Source of the DNA: Deltaproteobacteria bacterium
GTDB taxonomy: Bacteria; Desulfobacterota; Binatia; UBA9968
NCBI GenBank assembly: GCA_005879605.1
Contig: VBKE01000018.1
Coordinates: 560-64,559, forward strand
DNA: 64,000 bases
Direction of reading: 5' to 3'
Every line of letters starts with the position of its first letter. Position 1 is the stretch's first letter. The position numbers and the translations under genes are program-made. This document shows positions 8,498 to 58,992 of this stretch, in pieces. Below the pieces are notes generated by a model that saw only the letters and a program-made list of their open reading frames with translations, had not been told where the DNA came from and did not search any database.

Positions 8498-9241
8498 CTA
8501 TGTAAGTAAACGTCTTAACAAGTCGATGGGCACCGGGAAAATTATGGTGGAATTATTATCCGCTGATACCTCAACTAGACTTTGCAGGAATCTAAGGTGC
8601 ATGGCCGCCGGTTGTTTTGCAATGATCTCAGCTGCATCTGCGAGCTTCTGCGAGGCCTGAAACTCTCCCTCGGCATGAATGATCTTTGCACGCCTCTCTC
8701 TCTCCGCCTCCGCCTGTTTGGCCATCGCCCGCTGCATCTCCTGGGGAAGGTCGATGTCCTTCACTTCTACCAAAACCACTTTGATTCCCCACGGCTCTGT
8801 TTGGGAGTCCAGGATCTCCTGAATTCGCGTGTTGATCTTTTCCCTCTCGGCTAAGAGCTCATCCAGTAACGCCTGCCCGCAAGTGCTCCTGAGTGTAACC
8901 TGGGCGAGTTGAGAAGCGGCCAGGAGATAGTTTTGTACTTCCGTGATTGCTCGATTAGGCTCGATTACCCTGAAGTAGAGAACAGCACTGACCTTGATGG
9001 AGACGTTATCGCGTGTAATTACATCTTGCGGCGGGACATTCATTGTCACTGTGCGAAGCTCCATGCGCATCATTTTTTCGACGAGAGGAATGACGTATGT
9101 AATCCCAGGGCCCCGTGCCTGTACCAAACGCCCGAGCCTAAAGATCACCGCTCGCTCATACTCCTTTAAAATCTTGATCCCACTGATGGCGAGCAAAACG
9201 GCGATGACCAGAGCTGTGGCAATCGCCCCAAAATTGAACAT
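8498..9241 (-). CDS. Slipin (SPFH/stomatin-like membrane protein)
   Basis: A 247-residue SPFH-domain protein anchored by one N-terminal hydrophobic segment (residues 6-22). The SPFH core follows: [39 protein letters not shown] and an Ala/Glu-rich coiled coil ([20 protein letters not shown]). Slipins form large membrane scaffolds and often partner with NfeD proteases; no nfeD is found here. It lies upstream of the phosphohexomutase on the same strand, 71 bases apart. The ribosome-binding site is weak (GGATAGG). Membership in stress gene clusters is common for this family. Confidence 0.85.
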
Positions 9242-9394
9242 AGCCTATCCTACGCCAACTTCGCTATCGACCTGTCCTGCAGACGCAAAAGGGTCCACGG
9301 CATATTTCACCGCCTCAGACAGCCTGTCAACAACACAAACAGGACGCGTTGTAGCAACGTAACTGCGTCACGGGTTAACAGCAACGTGATTATT

Positions 9395-9554
9395 TCAGGA
9401 CATGGAGCGCATAACCCCGACAATGAAAGCGTAGAAGCGAGTCGAGGTCATGGCGGATACCGTATCTACCACTGCGTTCACAATATCCCCGGTGCCCTTA
9501 GATGGCGCTGACAATCTCCCCCTTTACGGATTCAAGCATGCTTTTCTGTGACAT
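9395..9554 (-). pseudogene. Frameshifted small Val/Thr-rich protein gene
   Basis: It begins with a perfect AAAGGAGGT and ATG at 9554 and reads MSQKSMLESVKGEIVSAI, then a stop. One base over, the frame continues KGTGDIVNAVVDTVSAMTST and on to a stop at 9395. The joined product resembles a family of small repetitive proteins (KG-TG-IV-NAVVDTV repeats) that I recall from stress clusters of environmental bacteria. One extra T at the ATC-T-AAG point explains the break. The second part also ends early compared with that family. Called a pseudogene; a sequencing indel cannot be ruled out. Confidence 0.5.
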
Positions 9555-9566
9555 GGCTCACCTCCT

Positions 9567-9746
9567 TTATGAATCCTTAACGTTATGCAAAGTGATCTCG
9601 GACTTTTTGAGATCTCTGGGCCTTCCTGCGCAACTAAAATATATCGGTTTACCTTTTGGCTCGGATCGGAAAACAGACTCCGCTGTTTTTGGCTCTTCTT
9701 CCTGAACTTTCCTCTCAGTTTTTGCTCTCTCGTTTCTTCCACCCAT
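9567..9746 (-). CDS. Small basic hypothetical protein
   Basis: 59 codons, beginning MGGRNERAKTERKV, with a strong AGGAG seven bases before the ATG at 9746. The product is very hydrophilic (Lys, Arg, Glu), has no membrane segment and ends SEITLHNVKDS. I do not recognise a domain. It sits between the single BON-domain gene (9797) and the frameshifted small gene (9395), all on the minus strand, and the latter's ribosome-binding site begins right after its stop, so the three look like one transcript. Confidence 0.45.
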   Translation of the reverse strand: MGGRNERAKTERKVQEEEPKTAESVFRSEPKGKPIYFSCAGRPRDLKKSEITLHNVKDS

Positions 9747-9796
9747 TGCCGTTCTCCTTTCGGTCACCGAGGCGACCGCTCGTGCGGTGCATTGCC

Positions 9797-9994
9797 TTAG
9801 CGCTTGGCTGTCATGAGGCGGAGATCGTCCTCGACTGCGCGCACGCCCTGGATCGAGCGCGCTAGCACCGCTACCTCCAGGCGCCGCGCCCCGGTCGGAG
9901 TGGTCCCCGTCAGCCGGACGACGCCATTCTTCACGTCCACGGTGATGTCCTTGAAGCCTTGGGTCTCAAAGGCCTTCTTCACTTCGCGCTCCAT
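9797..9994 (-). CDS. Single BON-domain protein
   Basis: 65 residues forming one BON domain (bacterial OsmY and nodulation domain, a phospholipid-binding fold): FETQGFKDITVDVKNGVVRL, TG, then the helix and GVRAVEDDLRLM. It has no signal peptide, so either it is cytoplasmic or the N-terminus is missing. GGAGG lies 22 bases before the ATG, too far, and a stop codon directly precedes the ATG; this suggests the 5' end has been changed. BON proteins protect envelopes during osmotic shock. A second, lipidated BON protein is at 10953. Confidence 0.6.
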   Translation of the reverse strand: MEREVKKAFETQGFKDITVDVKNGVVRLTGTTPTGARRLEVAVLARSIQGVRAVEDDLRLMTAKR

Positions 9995-10053
9995 CTAAGG
10001 CGGCTACGGCTATCCCTCCTTTTAACGGATCAAGACACGTCCCTAGTTTGTCT

Positions 10054-10278
10054 TCACCGTCTCACGAGGCTCATCGGAATCTCAAGTTCAGTGATATTAT
10101 CCGGATCGGGGTCCTGCATCTCGTCTATGCGTTCAAATCTCTTTTGTAATTCCAAGCGCAACATCTTTTTCCTTTGCCCGTAAGCAACGATCGAGCGCGG
10201 ACTGCTCGACCAGGTGCGCCCTTGATCGGGGCTGTAGAGTTCGAAGCGCTGACCGCAGATCTCAATTTGTTTGAGCAT
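10054..10278 (-). CDS. Conserved-looking small hypothetical protein
   Basis: 74 residues starting MLKQIEICGQRFEL, with AGGAGA five bases before the ATG at 10278. It contains LYSPDQGRTWSSSPRSIVAY, a short basic helix (QRKKMLRLELQKRFERI) and an acidic stretch (DPDPDNITELEIP). No known domain recognised; the SPDQGRTW pattern resembles a strand-turn of a small beta fold. The frame is open upstream into a radical-SAM gene remnant, but the ribosome-binding site shows this part is made on its own. Confidence 0.5.
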   Translation of the reverse strand: MLKQIEICGQRFELYSPDQGRTWSSSPRSIVAYGQRKKMLRLELQKRFERIDEMQDPDPDNITELEIPMSLVRR

Positions 10279-10458
10279 GGTATTCTCCTGACCCTTGGTA
10301 TGGGTTTGTTGCGGGAGCACGCCTTTCCAAAAGCGAATGACATAACCATCGTCATCGTACTTCGAAGGTTTGATCAGAACGATGCGCAATTTTCCAAACG
10401 GCGGCTCTGGCGTTGGCCCCTTGATCGACTCATGCCCACTTATACGTTGGCTTAACAT
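10279..10458 (-). pseudogene. 5' stub of a B12-binding radical SAM gene
   Basis: From an ATG at 10458 (GGAGG ten bases upstream) the frame reads a short leader and then KLRIVLIKPSKYDDDGYVIR and FWKGVLP. This is the usual start of B12-binding-domain radical SAM proteins, where the first beta strand is followed by the KYDDDGY loop. Homology stops after about 50 residues, before the cobalamin DxHxxG motif or any iron-sulfur CxxxCxxC motif, and the frame runs into the next small gene. A gene of about 500 or more codons has been reduced to its first exon-like piece by deletion. Confidence 0.6.
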
Positions 10459-10606
10459 ATCGTGTGCGCCTCCCAAGATCGGATATGCCCTCTTTCGCAA
10501 ACGAATGTATTATCATTTTCACTCTTACGGCAGATGGTTGCCGAGCATCGCGATCCTGAGAATCGTGAATGCATGATTCTGGAACGTACCGCCTCGGATG
10601 GATTCG

Positions 10607-10906
10607 CTATCCGCCCAAATTCTCTCGCCTTTCTTCCTCGTAGGCCTGCTTTTCGGCCTCCGTATCGGTCTTGACCGAATCGCAATGAGGGCCAATGAAT
10701 TCCTTTCCCTTTTTCACAATCCCTTCGGCGTTCTCACGCAGCTTTCGCGCCTGTTGATTCAGATAATCAAGGCTCTTATTGCTTCGCCGACGAAGATATT
10801 TCCGCGTTTCTTCGCCCGAGCGGGACGCGAACAACAGCCCAGCAATTGCCCCTAAACCCAGACCGATAAGCAAGTAAGAGAATTTGAATTCACCATTGGT
10901 TCGCAT
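10607..10906 (-). CDS. YtxH-like membrane-anchored stress protein
   Basis: 99 residues: a short polar N-terminus, one glycine-rich membrane helix (YLLIGLGLGAIAGLLFA, residues 11-27), then SRSGEETRKYLRRR and an amphipathic, charged coiled-coil tail ending in an acidic stretch. This is the YtxH/general-stress pattern. The start has GGGT at moderate spacing. It is upstream of the radical SAM stub and downstream of the BON lipoprotein on the same strand. The 148 bases between it and the stub hold no clear gene. Likely inner-membrane; function in the family is general stress. Confidence 0.7.
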   Translation of the reverse strand: MRTNGEFKFSYLLIGLGLGAIAGLLFASRSGEETRKYLRRRSNKSLDYLNQQARKLRENAEGIVKKGKEFIGPHCDSVKTDTEAEKQAYEEERRENLGG

Positions 10907-10952
10907 ACGTTTACCCTTTCTTTTATGACGCTCACGCTGGCACAGTCTGCTT

Positions 10953-11264
10953 CTAACGCTTGATGACTTGCAGGTTATTGACGACTTTTTTGACGCCTTT
11001 CACCTCAGACGCAAGCGATCCAATTCGGGACCTCTGCTCAGCGGTCTCGACTTCGCCGGTCAGATAAACAACCCCATTGTTGGTCTCGACTCCCACACGT
11101 GTCAGGGTGACAAGCTTGTCTGATGCGAGCTTGGTCTTCACGTATGAGGTAAGAGTTCCATCATCGATGTTCTGTCCCATGGTCTCACCCGTCATAGCTT
11201 GGCAGCCGGTTATCAAGATTAGAAAGGCCACCATCACTGTCAACGTTTTGAATGCCCGTACCAT
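10953..11264 (-). CDS. BON-domain lipoprotein
   Basis: 103 residues from the ATG at 11264, which has GGAGG six bases upstream; the longer frame lacks this. Signal peptide with lipobox (LILITGC), then a BON domain: DDGTLTSYVKTKLASD, VETNNGVVYLTGEVETAEQR, then VKGVKKVVNNLQVI. Lipidated BON proteins (OsmY/DolP-like) sit at the outer membrane, bind anionic lipid and help keep the envelope tight under stress. Together with 9797-9994, it gives the island two BON proteins of different location. Confidence 0.8.
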   Translation of the reverse strand: MVRAFKTLTVMVAFLILITGCQAMTGETMGQNIDDGTLTSYVKTKLASDKLVTLTRVGVETNNGVVYLTGEVETAEQRSRIGSLASEVKGVKKVVNNLQVIKR

Positions 11265-11354
11265 AAATACCTCCCAAAATACTGCCGAAAATTGCTTTTT
11301 TTTCCCAACGAATGAGCCCTTCATGAAAATTTGTTTCTGAAAACGCCCGTACGG

Positions 11355-11928: not shown

Positions 11929-12279
11929 TCAGGAGTGAAACCCTATGCCTTGAATTGGTTTGACGATACGCTGACTGGGGATGGATTGCTGTCCAATACT
12001 GGACCGTCTTGAAATTAAATATCGAGTGGGCTCGCGAAGGTGCGCAGCCGCTCTAGGCGATTGAGCGAGGTGATCGGTGAGTTTCTTTTCTTTGATGATG
12101 AGAAAGCGATCTTTATTCGTCTCAATCAGCCCAAGGTTATGAAATCTCTGCATAAACAAGCTGATCCGAGGGCGGGTCGTGCCCACCATCTCGGAGAGTT
12201 CCCCACTATTTGACAAGGGCTCATGTGTTCCGTTACGAAACCTACGCGAATTGTGGCAAATGATGAAGAAGGCTTCGGA
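11929..12279 (-). pseudogene. Truncated Crp/Fnr-family regulator (DNA-binding end only)
   Basis: The frame is open from a stop just upstream of 12279. It contains the C-terminal helix-turn-helix of a Crp/Fnr protein: SNSGELSEMVGTTRPRISLF, then MQRFHNLGLIETN and a wing strand FLIIKEKKLTDHL. The cyclic-nucleotide-type sensor domain is gone and no start codon with a ribosome-binding site is visible (a TTG at 12216 is the only candidate). The recognition helix TTRPRISLFMQRF is of the type common in soil-bacterial Crp homologues and differs from E. coli CRP. After the natural end the frame reads through promoter site 4. It is probably a relic of the regulator of the TGTC-N8-GACA promoters. Confidence 0.6.
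11963..12005 (-). promoter_or_regulatory. Class II Crp/Fnr-type promoter (site 4)
   Basis: Minus-strand reading: TTTCAAGAC, then GGTCCAGTATTGGACA (12005-11990), 21 bases ending GTCAGCG, then TATCGT (11968-11963). It drives the now-collapsed lipoprotein copy at 11865. From here to 11863 the sequence is a diverged duplicate of 4970-5115. Confidence 0.55.
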
Positions 12280-12287
12280 TTACTTTC

Positions 12288-12317
12288 CTTGACAACAGTC
12301 CATCGCACCCCTAGTCT
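12288..12317 (+). promoter_or_regulatory. Sigma32-like heat-shock promoter of hsp20-lon
   Basis: CTTGACA (12288-12294), 13 bases, CCCCTAGT (12308-12315). This fits the heat-shock consensus CTTGAAA-N13/14-CCCCATNT. The same bases also read as a sigma70 promoter (TTGACA-N17-TAGTCT). Start of transcription near 12323 would give a short leader before the hsp20 ATG at 12361. Confidence 0.5.
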
Positions 12318-12360
12318 ACTTGCTACAGTTCATTTTTCTAGTCTTGTGGGCTTGGATAAT

Positions 12361-12792
12361 ATGTCAGCGCACGATTGGGATTTCCTGCTTTGGCAGCGAG
12401 CAAGCGATCTACTCCAGCAGGCAGAGCGGATCCAGAGGAATTTTTTACAAATCGCCGCTGGTGCCCACTATCGGGCATCTCACGGTCGAATATCATGCTG
12501 GGAACCTCCCGTTAACGTCGTCGAGACTGACGAAAGCCTGTGGGTGATTTCGGCCCTACCTGGGGTAGCAACTGATCAAGTGGAGGTGCGATTAGAGGGA
12601 CGCGAACTTGTCATCGCAGGTGAACGACCGCTGCCAAGATGCTGCGATGACGGAGAACTAAAGATATGGGAAATCCCGCACGGTCGTTTTGAGCGGCAAC
12701 TCAGGCTGGTGGGAGGCGAGAGTCCTCTATCGGTAGGCGAAATTTCTCTCCAGAATGGGCTACTCATCATCGAGCTAAAGAAGCATTCATGA
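12361..12792 (+). CDS. Hsp20/alpha-crystallin-type small heat-shock protein
   Basis: 143 residues. An N-terminal helix (residues 1-40, aromatic and Gln-rich) is followed by the alpha-crystallin domain: CWEPPVNVVETDESLWVISA, LPGVATDQVEVRLEGRELVI, AGERPLP, then IPHGRFERQLRL and a last strand NGLLIIELKK. It holds unfolding proteins for refolding or degradation. It lacks the C-terminal IXI extension of classic small heat-shock proteins. I chose the ATG at 12361 because the promoter at 12288-12317 leaves no room for the longer frame from 12223. Its TGA overlaps the lon ATG (ATGA), so the holdase and the protease are translated as a coupled pair. Confidence 0.85.
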   Translation: MSAHDWDFLLWQRASDLLQQAERIQRNFLQIAAGAHYRASHGRISCWEPPVNVVETDESLWVISALPGVATDQVEVRLEGRELVIAGERPLPRCCDDGELKIWEIPHGRFERQLRLVGGESPLSVGEISLQNGLLIIELKKHS

Positions 12793-15197
12793 ACGCTGAA
12801 CACAACGAATCCAGTAAATCTATGCCGCGTCCTAATATCCCTGCGGGAGCGTTGGTCATCATACCTTTACGCAACCGGGTACTGTTTCCGTCCATGATCA
12901 TGCCACTCATGGTCCGTCGCCCCGCACGGCTCCAAGCTGTCGAAGAGACTGTGCGCCAACAACTTCCTATTGGATTTGTCACCCAACGCGATCCAAATAT
13001 AGAAGTTCCAGAGCCCAAAGACCTGTACGAAGTAGGTACCGCAGCGGATGTTCTACGGATGTTTACCCTGCCGGACGGTCAGCGTCAGATCTTCGTTCAA
13101 GGCCGCCGCCGCTTTGAGATCGGCGAATTCCTTGAGACCGATCCCCTCCTCATTGCGCGTGTCACCATGGTGGAAGAAAAGATACCGCAGACAAAGGAGT
13201 TCGAGGCGAGAATCTTACATCTGCGTCAAGAAGCAGCCAGGGCCTTATCGTTATTCCCTGAACCCATGAGCGAACTGAGCTCGATGATTGAACGGATTGA
13301 AGATCCCTCATCCGTAATCGATATGATCGCTTCCACCTTGCATCTTGCGTCTGCCGAGAGGCAAGAAATTCTGGCGATCTTTGACCCAGAGGCACGAGCC
13401 CAAAGGGTTTCAGAAAAGTTGGCGCGTCACATCGAATTGCTGGAATTGACCAGGAAAATTGGCGACGAAACCAAGGAATCCATGGATAAGTCCCGGCGCC
13501 AATATTTCCTGCGCGAACAATTAAAGGCCATTCAAAAGGAACTGGGCGAGCAGGATGGGAAAGGTATCGAAGTCGAAGAGCTGAGAAAAAAACTCTACGA
13601 GGCAAAAATGCCCCCCGATGTCGAGAGGGAAGCGCTAAAAGAGCTGGCTCGTTTGGAGCGCATTCCTGAGATGGCGCCTGAATACTCGTTAATGAGAACA
13701 TACTTCGATTGGTTGGTGGAGCTGCCTTGGAGCATTGTCACCGAGGAAGAGATCGATCTTCCGAAAGCGCGTGAAATTCTCGACACCGACCACTACGGTC
13801 TCGAAAAAGTGAAAAAGCGCATTATTGAATTTCTCGCGGTTCGTAAACTCATGCCGCAAGGAAAAAGCCCTATCCTGTGCTTCGTCGGTCCCCCGGGAGT
13901 CGGAAAGACCTCCCTCGGGCAAAGTATCGCTCGGGCCATGAATCGTAAATTCGTGCGACAGAGTCTTGGTGGGGTCCACGATGAGGCGGATATTCGGGGG
14001 CATCGGCGTACCTATGTCGGGGCCCTCCCCGGTAATATCATTCAAGGAATAAGAAAAGCAGGCAGTAGAAATCCCGTCTTCATGTTGGATGAAGTCGACA
14101 AGCTCAGCGCTAGTTTTCAGGGCAACCCTTCCGCTGCGTTGCTGGAGGTCCTCGATCCCTCTCAAAATTCCACTTTTCAGGACCATTACCTCGCATTGCC
14201 TTTCGATCTAACACAGGTATTGTTCATCGCGACGGCTAACGTGCTCGATACTGTTCCGGGCCCTCTGCGTGACCGGATGGAGATCTTAGAATTGCCGGGA
14301 TACATCGCGGAAGATAAGTTGGCCATCGCAAAGGGATACCTTGTTCCTCGGCAGATTTCTGAAAACGGTCTTAAACCGGGAGAGATTAATTTTACCGACG
14401 AGGCGATTCGGGAAATAATTACATCCTACACACGCGAAGCCGGGGTTCGGCAACTTGAGCGTGAGTTGGGAGCTGTCTGCCGGAGTGTGGCAACGCGCAT
14501 AGCGGATGGGTTTAAAGAGACTATAACCGTCAATCAAGAATCTCTCGATGGGTACTTGGGCCCGCAAAAGTTCTTCAACGAGATTGCGCTGCGTACCAGT
14601 TTACCTGGAGTGGCTACCGGCTTGGCCTGGACACCGTTTGGAGGAGACATCTTGTTTGTCGAAGCTACCAAGATGGCCGGGGACGGCAAATTGCTGCTAA
14701 CCGGTCAGCTCGGCGATGTCATGAAAGAGAGCGCGCAGGCCGCGTTGAGTCTTGTCAAATCACGCGCCGGAACAGTTGGCATCGATCCGGATATCTTCAG
14801 GAAAAATGATTTGCACATCCATATCCCCGCGGGCGCTATCCCAAAGGATGGCCCAAGCGCCGGCATCACGCTCTTCGTCGCCCTCGTTTCACTTCTAACG
14901 GGACAACGCATCAGCAAAGATGTCGCCATGACGGGCGAGATCAGTCTCCGCGGCTTAGTACTACCGGTGGGAGGGATTAAGGAAAAGGTACTGGCAGCCA
15001 AAAGAGCGGGTATTTCTTGCGTCTTGTTGCCTGAGTTGAACCGAAGAGATATGGAGGAGATTCCAACCTCGGGCCGTGAGGGGATCCGCTTTGAATTTTT
15101 GAAAACCGCGGACCAAGCGTTGCTACTTGCCCTGGAGCCCGAAGCCCCAAGTGGTTTTTCCCCTGGTGAAAGACTCGCGGCTCGTTCTATTTCCTAA
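12789..15197 (+). CDS. lon: ATP-dependent Lon protease
   Basis: 802 residues, the normal length for LonA. Order: N-terminal substrate-binding domain (PLRNRVLFPSMIMPLMVRRP), a coiled-coil region (SRRQYFLREQLKAIQKELGE), AAA+ module with Walker A GPPGVGKTSLGQ and Walker B PVFMLDEVDK, then the protease domain with catalytic serine in PKDGPSAGI and catalytic lysine in GIKEKVLAAKRAG. It degrades misfolded and regulatory proteins. Its start overlaps hsp20 by four bases. This is probably an accessory Lon in addition to a housekeeping one elsewhere, but that cannot be checked here. Transcribed from the heat-shock-like promoter upstream of hsp20. Confidence 0.95.
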   Translation: MNAEHNESSKSMPRPNIPAGALVIIPLRNRVLFPSMIMPLMVRRPARLQAVEETVRQQLPIGFVTQRDPNIEVPEPKDLYEVGTAADVLRMFTLPDGQRQIFVQGRRRFEIGEFLETDPLLIARVTMVEEKIPQTKEFEARILHLRQEAARALSLFPEPMSELSSMIERIEDPSSVIDMIASTLHLASAERQEILAIFDPEARAQRVSEKLARHIELLELTRKIGDETKESMDKSRRQYFLREQLKAIQKELGEQDGKGIEVEELRKKLYEAKMPPDVEREALKELARLERIPEMAPEYSLMRTYFDWLVELPWSIVTEEEIDLPKAREILDTDHYGLEKVKKRIIEFLAVRKLMPQGKSPILCFVGPPGVGKTSLGQSIARAMNRKFVRQSLGGVHDEADIRGHRRTYVGALPGNIIQGIRKAGSRNPVFMLDEVDKLSASFQGNPSAALLEVLDPSQNSTFQDHYLALPFDLTQVLFIATANVLDTVPGPLRDRMEILELPGYIAEDKLAIAKGYLVPRQISENGLKPGEINFTDEAIREIITSYTREAGVRQLERELGAVCRSVATRIADGFKETITVNQESLDGYLGPQKFFNEIALRTSLPGVATGLAWTPFGGDILFVEATKMAGDGKLLLTGQLGDVMKESAQAALSLVKSRAGTVGIDPDIFRKNDLHIHIPAGAIPKDGPSAGITLFVALVSLLTGQRISKDVAMTGEISLRGLVLPVGGIKEKVLAAKRAGISCVLLPELNRRDMEEIPTSGREGIRFEFLKTADQALLLALEPEAPSGFSPGERLAARSIS

Positions 15198-58245: not shown

Positions 58246-58554
58246 GATTCCTCCTTTCGAAGCCGAGCGTTATATTCGTGTGATCGGCAAGGATGAGGAT
58301 AACAGCTAAGATATGAGAGAACTATCCGAAAAGTGAATCCCTCGTCAACACTTCTTGACGACTGTTTCCCACTCACCTATTTTGAGTACAAGTTGCACGC
58401 GACACTTGAGCAGTCATGGATCCTTTCCCTCCGTTCAGGACGACGGCGGTTTCAGGTGTCATGCTGAGCGAAGCGAAGCATCTCGAACTCGTGTCGTGAT
58501 GACCTATGGTTCTCAAAAACGACCGGTATTAAAATAATAAAAGAGGAGAGATTT
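58246..58554. other. Intergenic region between divergent genes
   Basis: 309 bases. It contains the CGTCAA inverted repeat (58343-58360) and GTCATGCTGAGCGAAGCGAAG at 58457, a common dispersed intergenic repeat. No gene seen. It must carry the promoter of the cupin gene at 58555. Confidence 0.45.
58343..58360. promoter_or_regulatory. CGTCAA-N6-TTGACG inverted repeat
   Basis: CGTCAACACTTCTTGACG, perfect 6-bp arms, between the divergent reductase remnant and the cupin/epimerase genes. It is a plausible operator for a dimeric repressor; it is not the TGTC-N8-GACA motif. No regulator gene is nearby. Confidence 0.4.
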
Positions 58555-58992
58555 ATGCCTGCGGAGTTCATTAATATTTTGAACCTTCCTGAACTGGATA
58601 TCGGCCACAGCAAAAAAGTGCTCTTCACTTCAGATCATTTTCACACCTGGGTTCACGGCGACTACCCGGGAACCAAAGGTCCGATGCACAAGCACACCGC
58701 CGATCAACAGTTTTACTGCGTTAAAGGTGAATGCACCTTTCACTTTCCCGACGGCTCCTCACGCAAGTTAACGCTCGGCATGCTGGCGACCATTCCCGCC
58801 GGGCAGCTCTACCAGCTCGATAACACGGGAGATGAATATATGATTCTCCTCGGCGCCAGAGCGGAGCCGGCAGGAAATCCCAGATTCACCGGCAACGATC
58901 AAGTGGTAACCGTGAGCGATTATGCGCTCAGGAATTTAGATAAGATCAAAGCACCGAAAGAAAAGAAAGCCATGGCCGGCCGGAAGAGCTAG
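58555..58992 (+). CDS. Cupin-domain protein
   Basis: 145 residues, one conserved barrel: PGTKGPMHKHTADQQFYCVK with metal-binding His-His and Glu/Gln, then a second strand pair LGMLATIPAGQLYQLDNTGD. The first cupin motif has HxH and the later histidine is replaced in YQLDNTG, so metal binding is uncertain. AGAGGAGA lies five bases before the ATG. Followed after 73 bases by an epimerase gene, same strand; the pair is the kind found in degradation clusters of aromatic or halogenated compounds, but the substrate is not known. Confidence 0.82.
   Translation: MPAEFINILNLPELDIGHSKKVLFTSDHFHTWVHGDYPGTKGPMHKHTADQQFYCVKGECTFHFPDGSSRKLTLGMLATIPAGQLYQLDNTGDEYMILLGARAEPAGNPRFTGNDQVVTVSDYALRNLDKIKAPKEKKAMAGRKS

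Follow-up and report, generated by a model that had tools for sequence, protein, structure and literature searches.

An hsp20-lon gene pair behind a putative RpoH-type promoter: a tail-less small heat-shock protein and its Lon neighbour in a Binatia-like genome and in several other phyla

In the window (the whole stretch of 64,000 nucleotides that was analysed), the gene of a small heat-shock protein, hsp20, ends within the first bases of a lon protease gene. This locus raises the question of whether the two products work together on heat-damaged proteins or share nothing more than their expression. A single ATGA overlap, taken alone, would mean little. The features of the locus, all on the + strand, are the following.

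12288..12294, +: -35 element CTTGACA (sequence reading; [CG]TTGAC at matching spacing in 17/17 orthologous copies)
12310..12317, +: -10 element CCTAGTCT (sequence reading and promoter-box comparison of orthologues)
12361..12792, +: hsp20, 143 aa, tail-less small heat-shock protein (PF00011, 31.4 bits)
12367..12483, +: predicted N-terminal helix, Hsp20 residues 3-41 (AF2 model and alignments; conserved W..A.(D)LL..AERI.RNF)
12520..12786, +: alpha-crystallin domain, Hsp20 residues 54-142, at the protein end and without IXI tail (profile matches, structural alignment, AF2 model)
12777..12783, +: AAAGAAG, possible lon ribosome-binding site within hsp20 (sequence)
12789..12792, +: ATGA stop-start overlap (sequence; 4-nt overlap in named relatives)
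12789..15197, +: lon, 802 aa, full-length, of the hsp20-linked clade (TIGR00763, 922 bits; tree)
12852..13424, +: Lon substrate-binding N domain PF02190 (Pfam match)
13875..14285, +: Lon AAA+ domain with Walker A GPPGVGKT at residue 367 (Pfam match, motif reading)
14529..15134, +: Lon protease domain with PKDGPSAG (Ser690) and GGIKEK (Lys733) (Pfam match, motif reading)

The hsp20 stop codon TGA (12790-12792) and the lon ATG at 12789 share the ATGA described in the original prediction, and the elements it placed before hsp20 were also read directly, as CTTGACA (12288-12294), 13 bases and CCCCTAGT (12308-12315). The frame of hsp20 is open upstream from 12223. As the longer version would cover the promoter and the Hsp20s of 17 relatives align to the ATG at 12361, this ATG is most likely the start, giving 143 aa; in a second copy on contig C502 (see below) the open frame extends no more than 12 nt beyond the corresponding ATG. 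The same 4-nt overlap was found at 12 of the 14 named loci of the window's group (L068-L081), and nine of these 12 ATGA relatives carry AGGAA at the position of the window's AAAGAAG (counted by eye). A mechanical reading of the junctions at 79 loci with lon gave 28 overlaps of 4 nt, three overlaps of 1 nt, and gaps of 0-20 nt in 37, 21-60 nt in four and more than 60 nt in three cases, one junction being ambiguous at -7 and three unreadable.

Just upstream of the promoter lies the remnant of a Crp-type regulator (window 11929-12216, - strand), reduced to its helix-turn-helix end (PF13545, 28.3 bits), beyond which the frames are full of stops. Stress-type neighbours are encoded at 8498-11324 on the - strand, namely an SPFH/HflK-like protein, a YtxH protein and a BON-domain (OsmY-like) lipoprotein.

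The conservation of the pair was followed in two sets of genomes. The orthologue group consists of 17 hsp20 matches with E < 1e-29 in 14 of 58 related genomes, the next matches being at 1e-10 or weaker; this count excludes a 27-residue hsp20 fragment that G024 has at the end of a contig. A lon gene lies directly downstream of all 17 copies and beside none of the 13 weaker Hsp20 loci of the same search. The distribution of the pair is patchy, with 14 of the 25 genomes of its own family and none of the 33 other related genomes searched. A profile scan of named genomes returned 83 relatives, of which 80 were kept (14 of them contigs that are also in the first set). At 79 of these 80 loci lon follows immediately on the same strand, and at the last one (L113) the contig ends 291 nt past hsp20. 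The co-occurrence in relatives that the original prediction implied was thus found in both sets. The pair occurs in Azospirillum, Thauera, Salinisphaera, Halomonas, Alkalilimnicola, Burkholderiales, Rhodospirillales, Planctomycetota and 'Deltaproteobacteria'/Candidatus Binatia MAGs, and hence in Alpha-, Beta- and Gammaproteobacteria, Planctomycetota and Binatia-like MAGs, the last of which hold the nearest kin of the window pair. Because several genera were sampled many times, the 79 loci are not 79 independent events. Beyond one genus, no third conserved gene or larger cluster was found around the pair. In one related genome a GroEL-like gene is located just upstream of it (L080/L052, contig C429 of G008).

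The Hsp20 protein scores 31.4 bits against PF00011 (cut-off 20.8) and thus has the alpha-crystallin domain of its family; its PDB profile matches are small heat-shock proteins, as are all the best Foldseek PDB matches of its AF2 model (mean pLDDT 84.8), which consists of helix 3-41 and a beta sandwich. The core aligns with solved small heat-shock proteins up to residue 141 of 143, two residues before its own end. This residue corresponds to residue 136 of 151 in wheat Hsp16.9 and to residue 135 of 147 in MjHsp16.5, which continue for 15 and 12 residues, respectively. In the alignment to these solved proteins the window Hsp20 stops at the alpha-crystallin domain, and the C-terminal IXI tail is absent. 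All 80 relatives have at most 11 residues past the last-strand motif, with 3 or 4 as the commonest lengths. Of 24 other Hsp20s with readable ends that served as a control, 22 have [IVL]x[IVL] close to the C-terminus. The tail is usual for higher oligomers and is no part of the definition of the Hsp20 family. It usually docks in the beta4-beta8 groove of the next dimer and thereby builds oligomers (PMC4823740). The family conserves W..A..LL..AER..R.F in the helix and RLEIPHGRFERR in the core. A Cys-Cys pair at residues 94-95 (window 12640-12645) is invariant in the 17 copies and mostly missing elsewhere; a redox or metal role is possible. The flexible N-terminus of Lon was considered as the source of a replacement IXI provided in trans, and this idea was dropped, as the xPRLNIP of the Binatia-like Lons is not kept in other phyla; canonical Lons have similar residues near their start.

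The Lon protein carries the N domain, the AAA+ module and the S16 protease in one chain (TIGR00763, 922 bits with a cut-off of 608; PF02190, PF00004, PF22667 and PF05362). Among 84 long coupled Lons, the Walker A motif is present in all; the DGPSAG serine was found by pattern in 77 and by eye in the remaining seven (L105, L106, L129, L133, L139, L140 and L143), and the lysine block by pattern in 81, two of the three exceptions keeping GEK and one being cut short. Ser690 and Lys733, assigned by the E. coli spacing, presumably form the active site. In a tree built from 129 Lons, a branch (0.927) separates the 77 that accompany tail-less Hsp20s from all 52 others; L216, L218, L223, L225 and L226 are themselves coupled copies and were not counted as solitary. 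Five loci are absent from the trees: L068 and L075 are short, L111 and L124 lack the protease end, and L113 has no lon. In a broader tree, of 75 Lons, all 27 sampled partners of tail-less Hsp20s likewise fell in one clade (SH-aLRT 100); before more Lons were added, one exclusive clade of 84 had been seen. Within the larger hsp20-lon group of the 75-Lon tree, 11 Lons without Hsp20 are nested, of which at least L284 and L285 follow dnaK. Exclusivity is therefore limited to the tail-less clade, and these 11 indicate that such a Lon can live without Hsp20 and that partners changed over time.

A wider view of the phylum was obtained from 297 genomes, in which the family profile found members only in the window's own genome (164 and 156 bits; next match 93). 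Weaker Hsp20 loci of the phylum also precede lon in 7 of 29 cases, which speaks against the idea that the tail-less subfamily is the only one linked to lon. Of the 30 Lon loci with the closest similarity to that of the window, 13, the window included, have an Hsp20 before lon; two of the other 17 begin at a contig end. The window aside, the ends of the lon-preceding Hsp20s of the phylum mostly carry IXI-like motifs. On the simplest reading, the chaperone-Lon neighbourhood would be old, with a single loss of the Hsp20 tail in one branch that spread widely. The opinion that Lon and small heat-shock proteins are usually in separate units is half correct: it applies to clpX- and dnaJ-linked lons, but the hsp20-lon pairing is common in several phyla.

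The second hsp20-lon copy of the assembly, on contig C502, encodes an Hsp20 that is 77% identical and has the same TTGACA-N13-CCCCTAGTCT promoter, with a -10 identical to that of the window. Its junction reads TAA-TC-ATG, a 2-nt gap instead of ATGA. The assembly is 94% complete and 7% contaminated; since G001 likewise holds two hsp20-lon copies, the duplication is real in the family, although C502 itself may be a contaminant. Production of both proteins in a fixed ratio had been proposed from the overlap. Co-production is supported by the conserved adjacency, but a strictly fixed ratio is unsupported, as the second copy has a gap and no overlap. The other two full-length Lons of the genome, L017 (contig C126) and L018 (C225), are encoded after clpP-clpX and dnaK-dnaJ, respectively. 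These clusters resemble hsp20-lon in that a Lon paralogue directly follows an unfoldase or chaperone gene and differ from it in their Lon clades and chaperones. Each Lon type thus seems to have its own chaperone neighbour. The conserved hsp20-lon pairing also suggests that duplicated Lons may have been shared out among chaperone partners.

The explanation that we favour, with a probability of roughly 60%, is that the locus is an RpoH-type heat-shock operon that joins a specialised small heat-shock protein with a dedicated Lon, and in which Hsp20 feeds degradation. An RpoH-type promoter would yield one message for hsp20 and the second-type Lon, and the end of hsp20 would be where lon translation is coupled. 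This Hsp20 retains the substrate-binding alpha-crystallin domain and the conserved N-terminal helix; having lost the IXI tail, it would probably stay a dimer or small assembly and form no large storage oligomer. Most likely it would keep proteins that heat has unfolded in solution, and in a state in which the co-made Lon can take them up and degrade them. The recurrence of the pair in several phyla suggests joint work of Hsp20 and Lon on heat-damaged proteins, and a partnership of the two is the best reading.

The strongest competitor, to which we would give perhaps one chance in a handful or slightly better, is that the two genes are only co-regulated: heat calls for both a holdase and a protease, and one promoter would supply them for independent action with no exchange of substrates. 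Tight junctions and a shared promoter would suffice for this, and the dnaK-dnaJ-lon and clpP-clpX-lon clusters of the same genome indicate that quality-control genes may tend to cluster in general. However, generic Hsp20s in these genomes have no lon next to them, and it is one Hsp20 subfamily and one Lon clade that are found together across phyla, with the tail loss in common. A bolder proposal than the favoured heat-shock operon, and one that we advance tentatively, is that the tail-less Hsp20 is a dedicated adaptor whose free core groove would dock heat-unfolded clients on its own Lon. The pair would then be a two-gene holdase-protease machine comparable to dnaKJ-lon and clpPX-lon, each Lon having its own chaperone.

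The heat-shock part of the favoured explanation depends on the promoter. A box of the form [CG]TTGAC-N15/16-N[CTA]TA is present upstream of all 17 orthologous hsp20 copies. The strict form CTTGAC-N15/16-CYTA was found in 14 of the 17 upstream regions (shuffled mean 0.01, maximum 1; reverse strand 2), and the looser heat-shock form in 12 (reverse strand 3). In the 64 kb, both strands counted, the strict form has two matches, one of which is the hsp20-lon promoter; the other is located at 58354-58379 on the + strand, and the next ORF, at 58555, is no obvious heat-shock gene. Upstream of groES in 24 related genomes, 27 of 29 regions have the loose box and 20 the strict one, with none on the reverse strand (30 loci, one left out for want of a frame). 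In the window's genome, three further hsp20 genes have CTTGAC with CTTAGGTT, CTTAGCTT or ATTAACTT (by eye). As the same type of box stands upstream of groES and of these three genes, the RpoH-type assignment is well supported, and with it the predicted heat-shock control of hsp20-lon. An RpoH-like sigma factor is encoded in the genome (299 bits, below the curated cut-off of 323; next paralogue 137). In the same genome, a sigma70-family gene of about 510 aa (L020, C168 13789-15359) lies directly upstream of an hsp20 with the same promoter-box type.

It is unlikely that the promoter is instead an ordinary sigma70 promoter, with TTGACA, a 17-base spacer and TAGTCT. Compared with the sigma70 consensus (TTGACA, TATAAT), the -35 is perfect, the spacing is standard and the -10 has three of six consensus bases; yet the -10 of the group retains C/T-T-A-G and not TATAAT, and the same box type stands before groES and other hsp20 genes. 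The window promoter reads CTTGAC-N16-CCTAGTC and so contains the CTTGA(A/C) used as the -35 criterion for the RpoH regulon; the -10 of the group is of the CYTA type. The rhizobial RpoH1 consensus is CTTGAA-N15-16-CCTATAT (quoted in PMC4843759), and the group's -10 is closer to this CCTATAT form than to the CCCCAT form of E. coli. The sigma32-like promoter of the original prediction is supported as to its type by the boxes before groES and other hsp20 genes and by the RpoH-like sigma factor. The E. coli-style TTGANA-N13-CCCCTAGTNT was rejected as a genome-wide regulon marker, being too loose: when up to 2 mismatches are allowed it has 15 sites, and the reversed pattern 29. Its exact matches in the genome are the two hsp20-lon copies only. 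Beyond the window's group, a sigma32 pattern matched no more than 5 of 65 upstream regions, each of them Betaproteobacteria-like, so the promoter result applies to the window's group.

Hsp20 might also be mainly a substrate of its own Lon, the operon arranging for clearance of the holdase once stress ends. A precedent exists in E. coli, where IbpA is a Lon substrate (PMC9961632 citing Bissonnette et al. 2010). In that case there is no gene linkage, so the substrate reading leaves the conserved linkage and the dedicated Lon clade unexplained, and we regard it as quite improbable. Chance adjacency without meaning is refuted by the co-occurrence in 17/17 and 79/80 loci with flanks that are not conserved.

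How proteins held by small heat-shock proteins are sorted to degradation or refolding is poorly understood. With one Hsp20 subfamily and one Lon clade present in culturable Azospirillum, Thauera and Salinisphaera, this question becomes directly testable, and the hsp20-lon observation is more important than the single locus implies.

Adjacency of hsp20 and lon is already in print for acidophiles. In Acidithiobacillus and Nitrospiria, hsp20.3 adjoins a Lon gene and coordinated regulation has been proposed (PMC10490939). The likeness to the present locus lies in an Hsp20 gene beside a Lon gene (section 4.2 of that paper) and in the suggested coordination; the section is a context observation in acidophiles, in which a missing tail, a separate Lon clade, a promoter and a spread over phyla are not seen. 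Published tables show joint regulation in two cultured species. Repression of rpoH in Acidithiobacillus ferrooxidans is accompanied by that of AFE_0871 (Hsp20) and AFE_0872 (lon) (PMC5021923), and in Sphingomonas wittichii both Swit_1146 (Lon) and Swit_1147 (small heat-shock protein-like) are induced by NaCl and PEG (PMC3238334). From the adjacent locus tags we infer that both are hsp20-lon modules, of the tail-less kind or not. No description of the tail-less Hsp20 subfamily or of its Lon clade was found in the open-access literature. As far as that text goes, the breadth of the pair, the separate Lon clade, the lost tail and the presence of clpPX-lon, dnaKJ-lon and hsp20-lon in one genome are new. 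The IbpA/IbpB and Lon proteins of E. coli are comparable in that a small heat-shock protein and Lon interact (PMC9961632). They differ in that the genes are separate, the Lon is canonical and IbpA is a substrate and not a partner. HspQ is a heat-shock protein outside the Hsp20 family, and we know of no operon that it forms with lon. In Yersinia pestis it acts as a Lon specificity-enhancing factor (PMC9961632 citing Puri and Karzai 2017) and is thus alike as a heat-shock protein that alters which proteins Lon degrades.
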